Assembly: GCF_027111275.1 (NCBI RefSeq)
Contig: NZ_CP114286.1
Coordinates: 2,480,001-2,544,000 of the forward strand
From: Flavobacterium luteolum
Lineage (GTDB): Bacteria > Bacteroidota > Bacteroidia > Flavobacteriales > Flavobacteriaceae
Direction: 5' to 3'
DNA length: 64,000 nucleotides
Positions 452 to 59,450 of the stretch are shown one piece after another. The notes beneath the pieces are model-generated. The model was not told the origin of the DNA. It searched no databases and saw only the letters and a program-made list of their open reading frames with translations. Made by a program: the position numbers and the translations under genes. The first letter of the stretch is position 1. The number at the start of each line of letters is the position of its first letter.

Positions 452-458
452 GTTTTTT

Positions 459-573
459 AACCGCAAAGAGCGCAAAGGTTTACGCAAAGTTCGCAAAGTT
501 TAATCATATAGCTTTGCGAACTTTGCGTTTATAAGTGTAACCTTGAAATAAAATCCTTGCGTTCTTTGCGGTT
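459..573. repeat. Palindromic repeat, AACCGC-arm family, copy A
   Basis: The element begins AACCGCAAAGAGCGCAAAGG and ends with the reverse complement type CTTTGCGGTT. An inner pair GCAAAGTTCGCAAAG / CTTTGCGAACTTTGC forms a second stem around an AT-rich loop. The same family recurs at 585, 18031, 36811, 38733 (one arm only) and 59226. It has no coding capacity of its own. Confidence 0.9.
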
Positions 574-584
574 AGGCTTTTTTT

Positions 585-745
585 AACCGCAAAGAGCGCA
601 AAGGTTTACGCAATCCCGATAGCTATCGGGAGCTAAGATTTTTAAGTAAGATTTATAAAAGTTCGCAAAACTTAATCATATAGCTTTGCGAACTTTGCGT
701 TTATAAGCGTAACCTTGAAATAAAATCCTTGCGCTCTTTGCGGTT
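585..745. repeat. Palindromic repeat, AACCGC-arm family, copy B, interrupted
   Basis: This is a tandem neighbour of copy A. Its loop and right half are nearly identical to copy A (shared stretch from the loop through the AACCTTGAAATAAAATCC block), so one was probably copied from the other. Copy B differs by about 45 extra bases inside its left arm, which begin with an 18-bp perfect palindrome at 614-631. Confidence 0.9.
614..631. repeat. 18-bp perfect palindrome nested in copy B
   Basis: TCCCGATAGCTATCGGGA is its own reverse complement. It sits where copy A has an uninterrupted arm, so it looks like a second, short element or its remnant inserted in the first. Confidence 0.85.
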
Positions 746-772
746 AAATTTTTCAGCAGCATTTTAAGATAT

Positions 773-17236: not shown

Positions 17237-18022
17237 TTAAATTTTATATAAAATTGGTTTGCTTGGACTTGCATCATTTTCAAACGAAGCAATTTGAAGA
17301 TTTAATATATAATTTCCATCTTCGATTTTGTCTGAAACATAAATCATTTCGGTAATTGTAGCATTAAATCTTGCGTCTGGATTTACATTATGCGTGTCTT
17401 TTACATTCCAAAACGCTTTATGGGCCAATAATTTTCCTTCATCATGTTCTTTGTCAACACTTGGTAAATCGATCAATAAATGCTGAATTTCGCTTTCGCG
17501 GATGTAAACTGCAGCATCTTCAGACAAATACGGCGGATTTGTATTGGAATATTTTCTTGATTTTTTTTCCTTTTGATTTGGAAGCGTTCTAATGATTAAA
17601 GCCTCATTTGTCACGCTGAGCGAAGTCGAAGCGCTCTCATGCGATGTCACATTGAGCGAAGTCGAAATGCTTTCTTTCGTAATCACAAAATCATCTCCAA
17701 TCTTTTCAGGTTCAACTGTAATCAATTTAGCAGAAAAGAAAAACTGTTTTAAAGATTGATTAATGCTATAAAAATCATTCGTAATATGACCTAAACATTC
17801 CGTATGCGTTCCATGCCCATGCGGATTGAAGAAAATATTATTGAAATTGGTAGATGATTTTCCTTCTGAAACTTTCCCAATCCAGTCGCCAAAAACTACT
17901 GGTTCAATGACTGGTTTTTCAATATACCAAGCAATCGGATTTTCATCTGTATTGGTTAAAGGAATAGAAATATCAATGGGTTTTGATAAGTCGATTTCGA
18001 AGTTGTTGATTTTTGCTATCAT
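17237..18022 (-). CDS. Cyclase (kynurenine formamidase-like) family protein with repeat insertion
   Basis: The 261-residue protein has the metal-binding motif of the cyclase family, H68-x-H70-G-T-H73-T-E, with surrounding N-P-H-G-H-G-T-H-T-E-C-L-G-H. The later blocks A-L-I-I-R-T-L-P-N and D-L-P-S-V-D-K-E-H-D-E-G are also present. Family members are metal-dependent hydrolases, including kynurenine formamidase; the substrate here is not certain. Residues about 117-139 (S-I-S-T-S-L-N-V-T and S-A-S-T-S-L-S-V-T) are the in-frame translation of two direct copies of the intergenic GAGCGAAGTCGAAG repeat (17611-17669). They replace what is usually a short loop. The frame stays intact, so the enzyme may still work. 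Confidence 0.85.
   Translation of the reverse strand: MIAKINNFEIDLSKPIDISIPLTNTDENPIAWYIEKPVIEPVVFGDWIGKVSEGKSSTNFNNIFFNPHGHGTHTECLGHITNDFYSINQSLKQFFFSAKLITVEPEKIGDDFVITKESISTSLNVTSHESASTSLSVTNEALIIRTLPNQKEKKSRKYSNTNPPYLSEDAAVYIRESEIQHLLIDLPSVDKEHDEGKLLAHKAFWNVKDTHNVNPDARFNATITEMIYVSDKIEDGNYILNLQIASFENDASPSKPILYKI
17611..17669. repeat. Two direct copies of the GAGCGAAGTCGAAG repeat inside the cyclase gene
   Basis: CGCTGAGCGAAGTCGAAGCG and CATTGAGCGAAGTCGAAATG lie head to tail, each preceded by GTCA, and both are read in frame by the cyclase gene on the minus strand. They are recognisable by identity to the intergenic element at 9604. Confidence 0.88.
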
Positions 18023-18030
18023 GTTGATTT

Positions 18031-18565
18031 AACCGCAAGGTTCGCTAAGGTTTACGCAAAGGTCGCTAGGATTTTATTAAAGATTGTTTGCTATTCTTTT
18101 AATACCATGTTTTAGTAATGCAACATTAAAATTTATTAATAAGCCTAGTTTGCAATTTGTTAATTTTAAGTAAGTCAATAGTTGAGCAAAATGAACTTCA
18201 TTTAAGCAATCTACAGACTTTATTTCCAAAATTAGTTTATTTTCTACTAAAATATCTAATCGATAACCAACATCTAATTTTACATCTTCGTAAATTAATG
18301 GTAGAGCCTTTTGTTTTTCAACTGTCAAGTTAAATTTTTTCAACTCATAAAATAGACATTCTTCATAAGCACTTTCTAAAAGTCCAGGTCCTAAAGTTTG
18401 ATGAACCTTCAAAGCTGAATGAAATACAATTCGTGATAAATCATTTTCTGACATAAAATCAATATTTAAAGCTCAAATATAATACTTGCGTCTTGAAAAT
18501 ATAGATTTATTCCTACAAAAAAACAGATAGCGTTCTTTGCGTAACCCTTAGCGAACCTTGCGGTT
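18031..18565. mobile_element. AACCGC-arm palindromic element carrying a GxxExxY gene (copy C)
   Basis: The left arm (from 18031, AACCGCAAGGTTCGCTAAGG...) and the right arm (about 18530-18565, ending CCTTAGCGAACCTTGCGGTT) are reverse complements over about 35 bases with a few mismatches. They belong to the same family as the gene-less copies at 459, 585, 36811 and 59226. Here the loop is expanded to hold one complete minus-strand gene, GxxExxY (18077-18454). The element sits between the cyclase and hemW genes, only 8 bp from the cyclase start. It looks like a mobile or formerly mobile unit; no transposase is present. Confidence 0.65.
18077..18454 (-). CDS. GxxExxY protein (PD-(D/E)XK nuclease fold)
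   Basis: The 125-residue protein carries the name-giving motif G24-L-L-E27-S-A-Y30. It also has a complete PD-(D/E)XK-type active-site pattern: R-L-D67, then E77-I-K79, with Q91 in the following helix. Family members are assumed to be nucleases or nuclease-like on the basis of this fold; no reaction is established. All presumed catalytic residues are intact, so the gene is not decaying. It lies entirely within the loop of a palindromic element whose empty copies are scattered through the window, which suggests a link between protein and repeat. It has no operon partner. Confidence 0.88.
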   Translation of the reverse strand: MSENDLSRIVFHSALKVHQTLGPGLLESAYEECLFYELKKFNLTVEKQKALPLIYEDVKLDVGYRLDILVENKLILEIKSVDCLNEVHFAQLLTYLKLTNCKLGLLINFNVALLKHGIKRIANNL

Positions 18566-18569
18566 AAAC

Positions 18570-25613: not shown

Positions 25614-25702
25614 ATTACGCAAAGATTCACAAAGAATTTCATGGAGTTGCACAAAAATACTCTGCGAATCTCTGTGAAATTCTTTGTGTATCTCTGTGGA
25701 AG
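25614..25702. repeat. Palindromic repeat related to the AACCGC family (TTACGCAAAGATTC variant)
   Basis: CACAAAGAATTTCATGGAG on the left is complementary, with two mismatches, to CTCTGTGAAATTCTTTGTG on the right. It lies between the UbiA and pseudouridine synthase genes and creates a spurious plus-strand reading frame. Confidence 0.75.
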
Positions 25703-29504: not shown

Positions 29505-29521
29505 ACTTTTTCATTTTTCCA

Positions 29522-29687
29522 CCATATAAGTTATATAAGAAATTATAAGCATGGTTTACTAAAAATGAACTGTGACATGATTGTCATCCTGAGCGGAGTC
29601 GAAGGCTTATGAATTGGAAAGGGCTTCGACTCCGCTCAGCCTGACACAGAATTAAATCCTTCAAATGAACTTATATAACTTATATGG
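29522..29687. repeat. Palindrome nested in palindrome upstream of tspO
   Basis: The outer arms CCATATAAGTTATATAAG (29522-29539) and CTTATATAACTTATATGG (29670-29687) are exact reverse complements. Inside lies a complete GAGCGGAGTCGAAG element (29582-29604 with 29624-29646, also exact apart from two positions). A close relative of the outer element is at 40661-40736. Confidence 0.9.
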
Positions 29688-29732
29688 TTTAAACTTTTCT
29701 TTTGACTATTTTTGAATTCAAAATTTGATACA

Positions 29733-36793: not shown

Positions 36794-36810
36794 TCTACAG
36801 TTTTTTTCTT

Positions 36811-36902
36811 AACCGCAAAGGTCGCAAAGTTTTACGCAAGGTTCGCAAAGTTTTTTATAATCTTTGCGAACCTTGCGATTTACCCTTGCGACCTTTGCGG
36901 TT
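36811..36902. repeat. AACCGC-arm palindromic repeat, copy D (short, gene-less)
   Basis: AACCGCAAAGGTCGCAAAG... and ...CTTGCGACCTTTGCGGTT pair, with inner arms GCAAGGTTCGCAAAG / CTTTGCGAACCTTGC around a short AT loop. It lies between the GDPD and amylase genes. Confidence 0.92.
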
Positions 36903-36908
36903 AAACTT

Positions 36909-38732: not shown

Positions 38733-38771
38733 ATTGCGAACTTTGCGCTTGTCCTTGCGAACTTTGCGGTT
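38733..38771. repeat. Single right arm of the AACCGC family (half copy E)
   Basis: ATTGCGAACTTTGCGCTTGT, then CCTTGCGAACTTTGCGGTT, has the right-arm sequence, but no left arm AACCGC lies within reach. The two repeats just above occupy its place. Confidence 0.8.
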
Positions 38772-38775
38772 AGGT

Positions 38776-59068: not shown

Positions 59069-59225
59069 AAAACTGCTTTGAGATCTTGTTAATGAATGAA
59101 AAAGAAAAATACAGTTTTACGAATATAGAAGATATTTTTTTATTCAGTCAATACTTTTTTAACAAAAACTATTAATTTGTTGACATTTTGGATTTAAGAA
59201 CTAAAGTAAATTTGAAGAGGTTTTT

Positions 59226-59320
59226 AACCGCAAAGAGCGCAAAGATTTACGCAAAGGTTCGCAAAGTTATTTTTAAACTTTGCGAACCTTGCGCTTTTTT
59301 TCTTTGTGTACTTTGCGGTT
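59226..59320. repeat. AACCGC-arm palindromic repeat, copy F (gene-less)
   Basis: AACCGCAAAGAGCGCAAAG and ...ACTTTGCGGTT are the outer arms, with inner arms GCAAAGGTTCGCAAAG / CTTTGCGAACCTTGC. It lies in the gap between the MHS transporter and the tRNA gene. Confidence 0.92.
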
Positions 59321-59350
59321 AAATAAAACAGAAAAGTATAAAAAACAAAA

Positions 59351-59377: not shown

Positions 59378-59450
59378 TGGTACCTCCAGGGATCGAACCA
59401 GGGACACATGGATTTTCAGTCCATTGCTCTACCATCTGAGCTAAGGTACC
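59378..59450 (-). tRNA. tRNA-Phe (GAA)
   Basis: Read on the minus strand this gives a 73-nt cloverleaf: acceptor stem GGTACCT with AGGTACC and discriminator A, D-loop AGCTCAGATGGTAGAGC, anticodon loop CTGAAAA (anticodon GAA) in stem GGACT/AATCC, and T-arm with GGTTCGATCC. CCA is not encoded. A single tRNA gene, followed by a strong terminator. Confidence 0.97.

Follow-up and report, generated by a model that had tools for sequence, protein, structure and literature searches.

GxxExxY genes of Flavobacterium and many other bacteria often stand between inverted arms that recur as gene-less hairpins, a candidate enzyme-plus-repeat system

The closest described counterpart of the element reported here is the RAYT system, in which palindromic extragenic repeats (repetitive extragenic palindromes, REP, and REPINs) occur together with an enzyme gene flanked by them. 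According to passages in two papers, the enzyme is vertically inherited, and the repeats are commoner where the enzyme gene is present and persist without it (PMC8049555, PMC3733652); moreover, a passage of the first states that E. coli genomes without a RAYT keep their REPINs (PMC8049555). For another class, the CGTC palindromic repeats, a passage of the second paper indicates that they seem to be without a dedicated transposase (PMC3733652). The locus described here shares the layout of palindromic extragenic repeats plus an enclosed enzyme gene. It lies in a stretch of 64,000 nucleotides of Flavobacterium luteolum (contig NZ_CP114286.1, positions 2,480,001 to 2,544,000; hereafter the window), where a gene of the GxxExxY family (TIGR04256; PF13366, PDDEXK_3) stands between inverted arms that also occur as gene-less hairpins. 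Based on the comparisons reported here, the link between GxxExxY genes and inverted arms is real, general and spread over many phyla.

In the window, the open reading frame (ORF) of 125 aa lies wholly inside a pair of arms of 41 nt each, 93% complementary and separated by 459 nt, which is the sole inverted pair reported between positions 17900 and 18700 at a minimum length of 12 (Table 1). The first-pass annotation of this DNA had described an intact GxxExxY gene with residues D67, E77, K79 and Q91 inside inverted arms of about 35 bp; gene, residues and arms are all present, the arms being longer than was stated. The protein reaches 147.6 bits against TIGR04256 (cut-off 35) and 142 bits against PF13366 (cut-off 22), the latter being its only Pfam match at an E-value of 0.001, and 32 aligned sequences from several phyla, the window protein included, all have residues G24, E27, Y30, D67, E77, K79 and Q91. 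Judged by score and conserved residues, it is a clear member of the GxxExxY/PDDEXK_3 family. The AlphaFold model (predicted local distance difference test score, pLDDT, 94.4) has a PD-(D/E)XK-type fold, with fold-match lists that leave room for other nuclease families. Orthologues at the same site give a median ratio of nonsynonymous to synonymous substitution rates (dN/dS) of 0.08 (49 pairs), showing purifying selection at the level of the coding sequence. Close homologues carry Flavobacterium names, that of F. johnsoniae being 94% identical, and a single search scored at least 8000 homologues. The host genome, one contig of 5.36 Mb, holds just two GxxExxY genes above the cut-off. The second (C1:3041121-3041462) stands between inverted arms of another sequence, TTTTTGCCACAGATTAAAGTGATTAA, with 24 of 26 positions matched.

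A GxxExxY match is present in 121 of the 150 Flavobacterium genomes sampled. To score arms, the two 300-nt flanks of a gene were matched in inverted orientation, with a threshold score of at least 14; this was done in 60 hand-picked stretches of about 8-10 kb that hold 62 GxxExxY genes and were chosen among the matches listed. Arms were found at 50 of the 62 GxxExxY genes, compared with 3 of 196 other genes of the same stretches, the excess that the first-pass annotation had proposed to look for; at a score of at least 16, the values are 47 of 62 and 1 of 196. Also, the contrary possibility raised there, that GxxExxY genes in related genomes usually lack arms, does not hold, as 88 of 109 unique Flavobacterium GxxExxY genes with both flanks reach a score of 14. 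Among the twelve of the 62 genes that are below the threshold, arms are visible by eye at five (L176, L170, L190, one gene of L157 and one of L187) and not at six (L153, L171, L189, L191, L192 and the other L157 gene), L142 being a broken copy. Direct-orientation scores (median 11.5, up to 36.5) are inflated by the palindromic arms and are not a control, and a mismatched-flank control (31 of 32 loci at a first look) was dropped because flanks of homologous loci share sequence. L187 carries a tandem pair of GxxExxY genes of one subfamily with ACGAATTA-type arms.

The same layout is observed beyond the genus in the best 80 of at least 571 relatives, a set whose phylum mix is non-random because its lead query was a Sphingomonas protein. 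In this case, 77 of the 80 loci were scored, three being left out for short flanks, and arms at the same threshold accompany 45 of 78 GxxExxY matches (one of them, L276 with 246 nt, short and probably false) against 7 of 312 neighbour genes. Records that reach a score of 14 include Geobacter, Chthoniobacter, Phycisphaerales, Nostoc, Acidobacteria, Chloroflexi, KSB1, Gemmatimonadetes and SAR324. Plasmid records of Bacteroides, Bernardetia and Gemmatirosa (the gene being broken there) have CACAGAG or CGCAGAG arms; Fusobacteria, Prevotella, Treponema and Persicobacter give weak or other-type arm matches, and Sphingomonas has a single arm upstream of the gene.

The arms vary along with the protein. 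Protein identity and arm likeness are correlated (Spearman 0.68, with at most 0.14 in 999 permutations). The nearest arm shares its protein cluster in 85 of 87 cases (shuffled mean 34, maximum 49), with one cluster making up 54 of the 88 genes. The arm-protein pairings are ENELSRIVFDCALKVHQ with AACCGCAAAG, ENEISAIVVDICYKMHV with TCGCGCAAAGACGCAGAG, SERTEEIGKIIVNSAFK with GCCACGAAGGCACTAAG, KKEVTQLSYEITGFAIK with ACCATTAAGRNATTAAG, ENEISYLVRGAIFKVYN with TTTCACGCAGATTTTGCAGATT, DTYKIIGICMEVHRNL with GCCACAGATTAAAAGGATTAA, and YKIIGLAIEVHRQL with TTCACAGAG or TTCACAAAG. At least two CRCNRRG units are present in 130 of 176 arms, most commonly spaced by 9, 8 or 12 nt. When each arm was picked by its own match, arm-to-arm covariation was 0.85 against 0.69-0.71 (13 elements), a difference that shrinks under independent anchoring and is therefore not taken as proof. 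Moreover, arms and gene are physically linked, so that common descent alone could give the subfamily match and a test in trans is needed.

Copies of the window gene's arms are found far from the gene. The pattern AACCGCAARGNNCGC has 96 matches in the host genome and its reversed form none, which places the arm copies far beyond chance, and a looser pattern gives 151 matches against 4 reversed, some places being listed twice. The gene-less copies and the lone arm listed by the first-pass annotation are all recovered in the window, as four hairpins and one fragment (Table 1). Three of these hairpins were folded as single-stranded DNA, and in each case none of 200 shuffles was as stable (z values in Table 1). 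The window also has a hairpin of another GxxExxY-linked arm type, TTCACAGAGATTCGCAGAG, and neither of the two host GxxExxY genes belongs to the subfamily with arms of this type. At ten of 15 host-genome loci, by mechanical ORF calls, the element begins less than 80 nt past the end of the left-hand + strand ORF, with borders that are often runs of T or A; nested hairpins are seen at two loci, L004 and L011. A known RNA element was rejected as the best reading, as a tRNA is the only Rfam entry in the window at gathering thresholds. That tRNA gene (59378-59450, -) has a cognate hairpin shortly past its 3' end. The TCCCGATAGCTATCGGGA palindrome that breaks one of the window hairpins also breaks an arm in the sister genome G077, at the site matching window position 36805.

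Table 1. Features of the window that belong to the GxxExxY gene and to its arm families.
Feature	Positions	Strand	Basis or remark
GxxExxY gene (TIGR04256 / PF13366 PDDEXK_3), 125 aa, presumed catalytic D67, E77, K79, Q91	18077..18454	-	Profile scores, alignment, AlphaFold model, dN/dS
Left arm TTTAACCGCAAGGTTCGCTAAGGTTTACGCAAAGGTCGCTA, made of CGCNRRG-like units	18028..18068	+	Inverted-repeat search
Right arm, repeating the left arm in inverted orientation, 93% complementary	18528..18568	-	Inverted-repeat search
Gene-less hairpin, arm family of the window gene	456..576	.	Single-strand DNA fold z -8.8
Gene-less hairpin, same family, broken at 614-631 by the TCCCGATAGCTATCGGGA palindrome	582..748	.	
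Gene-less hairpin, same family; other-family or nested hairpins there in sister species	36809..36905	.	Fold z -12.5
Gene-less hairpin, same family, 3' side of tRNA gene	59223..59323	.	Fold z -8.5
Lone arm fragment, same family	38757..38772	-	Site in sister genome G077 without hairpin
Hairpin of another GxxExxY-linked arm type (TTCACAGAGATTCGCAGAG)	25617..25699	.	

The test in trans compared copy numbers over the 150 Flavobacterium genomes for arm A, the AACCGCAARG pattern of the window's family, and arm B, the ACCATTAAG pattern. Subfamily A (at least 70% identity) is present in 34 genomes, G053, G065 and G066 having an internal stop, and subfamily B (KKEVTQL, at least 69% identity) in 24, G097 at 65% being left out. 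Counts include the gene's own arms, and 9 of the 29 gene-free genomes were assigned by exclusion. Both arms have a median of 3 copies in the 121 genomes with a GxxExxY gene and of 0 in the 29 without (p 5e-7 for arm A and 9e-7 for arm B). For arm B, the median is 20 in the 24 KKEVTQL-subfamily genomes and 0 in the 126 others, with an area under the curve (AUC) of 0.91, compared with 0.64 for the non-cognate subfamily A. For arm A, it is 7.5 in the 34 subfamily A genomes and 1 in the 116 others. A stricter comparison, in which two arms were subtracted for the gene and only GxxExxY-positive genomes were used, leaves arm B at an AUC of 0.86 for the cognate and 0.57 for the non-cognate subfamily.

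A pattern of three units, CRCNRRGRCRCNRRGRCRCNRRG, extends this test to other phyla. It is found in 34 of 40 many-phylum GxxExxY genomes, with 804 matches against 32 reversed, a count that is not a rate because the 40 were hand-chosen from the 80, mostly with visible arms. In 199 genomes of the alphaproteobacterial family to which Parerythrobacter lacustris (G156, L239) belongs, 38 of them with a GxxExxY gene above the cut-off, at least three triple-unit matches occur in 27 of the 38 gene-positive and 13 of the 161 gene-negative genomes (odds ratio 28, p 4e-15), and gene-free genomes carry up to 27 matches. Of the gene loci of this family, 20 of 30 reach an arm score of 14, including 5 of 6 from genomes with no triple-unit match, which means that the pattern misses some arm types. 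Taken together, these counts show that arm copies tend to accompany the gene in trans, strongly for arm B and this alphaproteobacterial family and weakly for arm A. In Litoribacter ruber (G177, L273), the triple-unit arms are mostly tandem, with head-to-tail arrays at C12:54111-57481, many of them about 51 or 95 nt apart. In Sphingomonas parapaucimobilis (L071), the GxxExxY gene stands between fabD and fabG in a fatty-acid cluster with one upstream arm; a fabG-like start also follows the gene in 4 of the 30 alphaproteobacterial loci (L335, L341, L342 and L345, related to L071), three of which have arms on both sides.

The gene-bearing unit itself appears to be inherited and broken in some lines, with no visible jumping. 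The 106 Flavobacterium gene records include some fragments of broken copies. For 100 of them, a neighbouring gene has a homologue next to the gene in one or more other species, in 16 groups, and six stand alone; this grouping by one neighbour (22 groups) becomes 27 if both sides are required. The first 14 of the 22 groups mostly hold one subfamily each, one of them holding two, and one subfamily can occupy a few sites among the groups listed. The window gene's group counts 23 records, the neighbours being, as we take them from sequence likeness, a cyclase-family gene and hemW. Stops interrupt the gene in G053, G065 and G066. Comparisons between species, the closest pair being 93.5% identical, revealed neither a clean empty site nor a target duplication nor a recent jump of the unit that carries the gene; the first-pass annotation had suggested comparing syntenic strains for its clean-bordered presence or absence.

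The gene-less hairpins show a different behavior, as the corresponding spots in sister species are occupied by hairpins of other families, which means that the repeats turn over. At the hemW site, gene-less species have hairpins of other types, GCCGCAAAGACGCTAAG or ACGGATTTTACGGAT, and G102 has a gene-less hairpin of the same family as the window gene. At site 36805, one hairpin is common to G000 and G042, another family's hairpin is nested in it in G049, and G088 and G135 have two others. For the pair G006 and G063, 93.5% identical over 170 kb, 6 of 14 G006 entries are of the same family in G063, five are replaced by another family at the same spot, and the rest are one remnant, one with nothing there and one unmapped; two of the five replaced entries are the outer and inner stems of one hairpin, which leaves 13 hairpins with four replaced. 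Over eight stretches, 72 arm-library hairpins were found against 8 in reversed sequences, with a library built from the survey's own genes. The striking pattern is replacement at fixed places, not insertion at new ones. The first-pass annotation had proposed an autonomous element with non-autonomous offspring. Its gene-arm link stands, as does the company of copies with the gene, and gene-less hairpins do differ between sister species; the mobile unit is not supported, given the shared sites of 100 of 106 records and the lack of an empty site for the gene-bearing unit between the species compared. The other contrary possibility raised there, that no strain shows an empty site or mobility, may therefore hold for the gene-bearing unit.

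For these observations, we lean, somewhat beyond an even chance, toward a sedentary PD-(D/E)XK-fold protein that acts in trans on dispersed hairpins and creates or exchanges copies. The GxxExxY gene would be the stationary enzyme component in a widespread system of enzyme plus repeats. It lies in the loop of a long palindrome, the arms of which are built from direct units about 8-12 nt long that resemble CGCAAAG in most families, and the same arms occur without the gene, scattered between genes as hairpins of about 80-230 nt. The protein would recognise its cognate direct units in extruded (cruciform) or single-stranded hairpin DNA and cut at or near the hairpin stem, and repair after such cutting would allow hairpins to be copied to intergenic sites or swapped there. 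A broader version is close to a coin toss, tilted slightly against: GxxExxY proteins would be the dedicated enzymes of a very large and as yet unrecognised superfamily of palindromic repeats in bacteria (the CGCAAAG, CACAGAG, CACGAAG, CACAGATTA, CGCAGATTT and CATTAAG families), each subfamily reading its own short unit and spreading or swapping hairpins between genes by a lone PD-(D/E)XK nuclease, unlike HUH, DDE, serine or tyrosine transposition.

Several points weigh against this trans-acting enzyme. Recognition and cutting of hairpins by the GxxExxY protein, and their copying or exchange, are steps that we infer from sequences, and common descent could by itself explain the subfamily match. 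Under independent anchoring, arm-to-arm covariation is weak (0.80 against 0.76, p 0.0014, 17 elements), and right arms are 0.81 alike between species. Arm A has little specificity, with an AUC of 0.77 for its own subfamily and 0.71 for subfamily B, and in the stricter comparison it falls to 0.61 (p 0.025) against 0.65 for the non-cognate one, these and the other p-values overstating the case because genomes share ancestry. Many arm A copies occur in genomes without subfamily A (122 in G103, 73 in G083, 68 in G077 and 67 in G091), and arm B orphans number 32 each in G051 and G029. Such orphan copies may be leftovers of gene loss, by analogy with the REPINs kept by RAYT-less E. coli; alternatively, they may be served by related subfamilies with near-identical arms (TTTTAACGCAAAG). 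In G077, there are 2 cognate hairpins against 4 in the reversed control. Neither a target duplication nor a clean junction marking the insertion of a cognate hairpin was found among five syntenic relatives or in one pair 93.5% identical, and one absence (G049 against G000) looks like a deletion remnant. Finally, most of L216-L230, nearly all of Sphingomonas type, are below the arm threshold and are a real exception.

Of the other explanations, control of the repeats is the one that survives best, at perhaps one chance in a handful: a structure-selective, unit-specific nuclease would trim, resolve or delete its own palindromes, and the arms would tune the expression or copy number of their own gene. 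Improbable, and a little more so, is that a RAYT or an insertion sequence spreads the hairpins and that GxxExxY genes are passengers caught between two copies. The host genome does have four Y1_Tnp matches, arm families exist without their GxxExxY subfamily, and the number of arm A copies is not subfamily-specific; indeed, the loss of arm A specificity in the stricter comparison gives slightly more weight to the passenger explanation and less to the trans-acting enzyme. However, RAYTs were rejected as the source of the arms because none of the four Y1_Tnp loci has them: three have their own inverted repeats, two with CGCAAAG inside a different 27-mer. Moreover, capture poorly explains the many shared sites with arm families that track the protein, the same layout in many phyla, or the odds ratio of 28. 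As for the Y1_Tnp loci themselves, two of these genes (L036 and L037, near 5.22 Mb of the genome) stand between inverted GCTGCGCAAATGTCTCTGACTTTGCGC copies and a different inverted repeat surrounds that of L034; the host genome seems also to have RAYT-type systems with separate repeats.

An autonomous transposon with miniature inverted-repeat transposable element (MITE) offspring, in which the whole gene-bearing unit moves, is very improbable and was rejected as the best reading: arms and gene do form a unit, and a broad subfamily is found at different sites (locus groups 0, 9 and 10), but the shared sites of 100 of 106 records and the lack of clean-bordered empty sites and target duplications are against it. 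That the hairpins are selected transcription terminators at gene ends, GxxExxY genes having one on each side, is hardly credible: the position of ten of 15 host loci near an ORF end, often with T or A runs, is in its favour, but it leaves unexplained the subfamily-tracking arms, the trans association and the arm upstream of the gene.

Other repeats were seen near these elements. Two copies of a GAGCGAAGTCGAA repeat lie at 17605-17675, in frame within the cyclase-family ORF (17237-18022, -), and relatives vary in length and sequence exactly there; these repeats resemble palindromic elements inserted into genes. A hairpin with ACCATATAAGTTATATAAG arms at 29520-29688 is shorter in G088 and G049 and replaced by other sequence in G077, and a ACCATATAAGTTATATAAG-like hairpin is part of a 141-nt stretch of G006 that is missing from G063; the ACCATATAAGTTATATAAG hairpins may form a further family.

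Arm repeats of the CACAGAG and CGCAAAG kinds occur in many copies in GxxExxY-bearing genomes of the several phyla searched, and no enzyme for repeats of these types was found in searches of the open-licence PubMed Central (PMC) literature. A link to a nuclease family would give them a candidate enzyme and make their origin testable, and it would offer a starting point for working out what a large family, so far named after a motif, does. Also, the subfamily-arm pairs are a natural data set on how a PD-(D/E)XK protein might choose its DNA, and an enzyme-repeat partnership could account for the origin and the changes of some palindromic repeats that are common in bacteria. The family names TIGR04256 and PF13366 carry no repeat link, and the open-licence PMC papers, in the passages available and with subscription journals and preprints outside that scope, gave no link of GxxExxY/PDDEXK_3 proteins to these arms; among such papers, twelve arm sequences occur only in work on other subjects, judged by title. 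Neither PADLOC nor PHROGs has a match for the window protein or a Bacteroides homologue, so that a known defence or phage gene was rejected for the window protein, and the Sphingomonas homologue matches RTasPDDEXK of PADLOC weakly. A profile of eight family members matched no solved chain at an E-value below 0.1.

With respect to known PD-(D/E)XK nucleases, the window protein would be like Cas4, lambda exonuclease and Hjc only in its modelled fold. Cas4 is marked by the cysteines of an iron-sulphur cluster and by cas gene neighbours. With MITEs and their insertion sequences, the element shares inverted termini and one gene-bearing copy next to many gene-less ones; however, no transposase lies between the arms, no target duplication is seen between the species compared, and gene-bearing copies are at sites shared between species. 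The CGTC repeats are alike as bacterial palindromes without a known dedicated transposase, although the window arms lack the CGTC tag. The likeness to RAYT/REPIN goes further: the GxxExxY gene is at a fixed site in related species (100 of 106 records, grouped by neighbours), and the repeats are more numerous where it is present, weakly so for arm A and its own subfamily. Nonetheless, the enclosed enzyme has a predicted PD-(D/E)XK fold, whereas RAYT is an HUH/Y1 tyrosine transposase; the window copies, by inspection, end in TTAACCGC...GCGGTTA with no GTAG or CGTC tag; GxxExxY arms consist of consecutive direct units, each about 8-12 nt long; and GxxExxY subfamilies with separate arms coexist in one genome, two here and up to 12 matches elsewhere. 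Since it lacks an HUH transposase and, in the window copies, either tag, the system is RAYT/REPIN-like in organisation and not a member of that family, and such likeness around an unrelated enzyme would mean that systems of enzyme plus repeat have evolved convergently. Since both the enzyme class and the build of the repeats differ from those of known systems, it could be new in kind, whereas a stricter classing would make it a variant of the enzyme-plus-REP systems.
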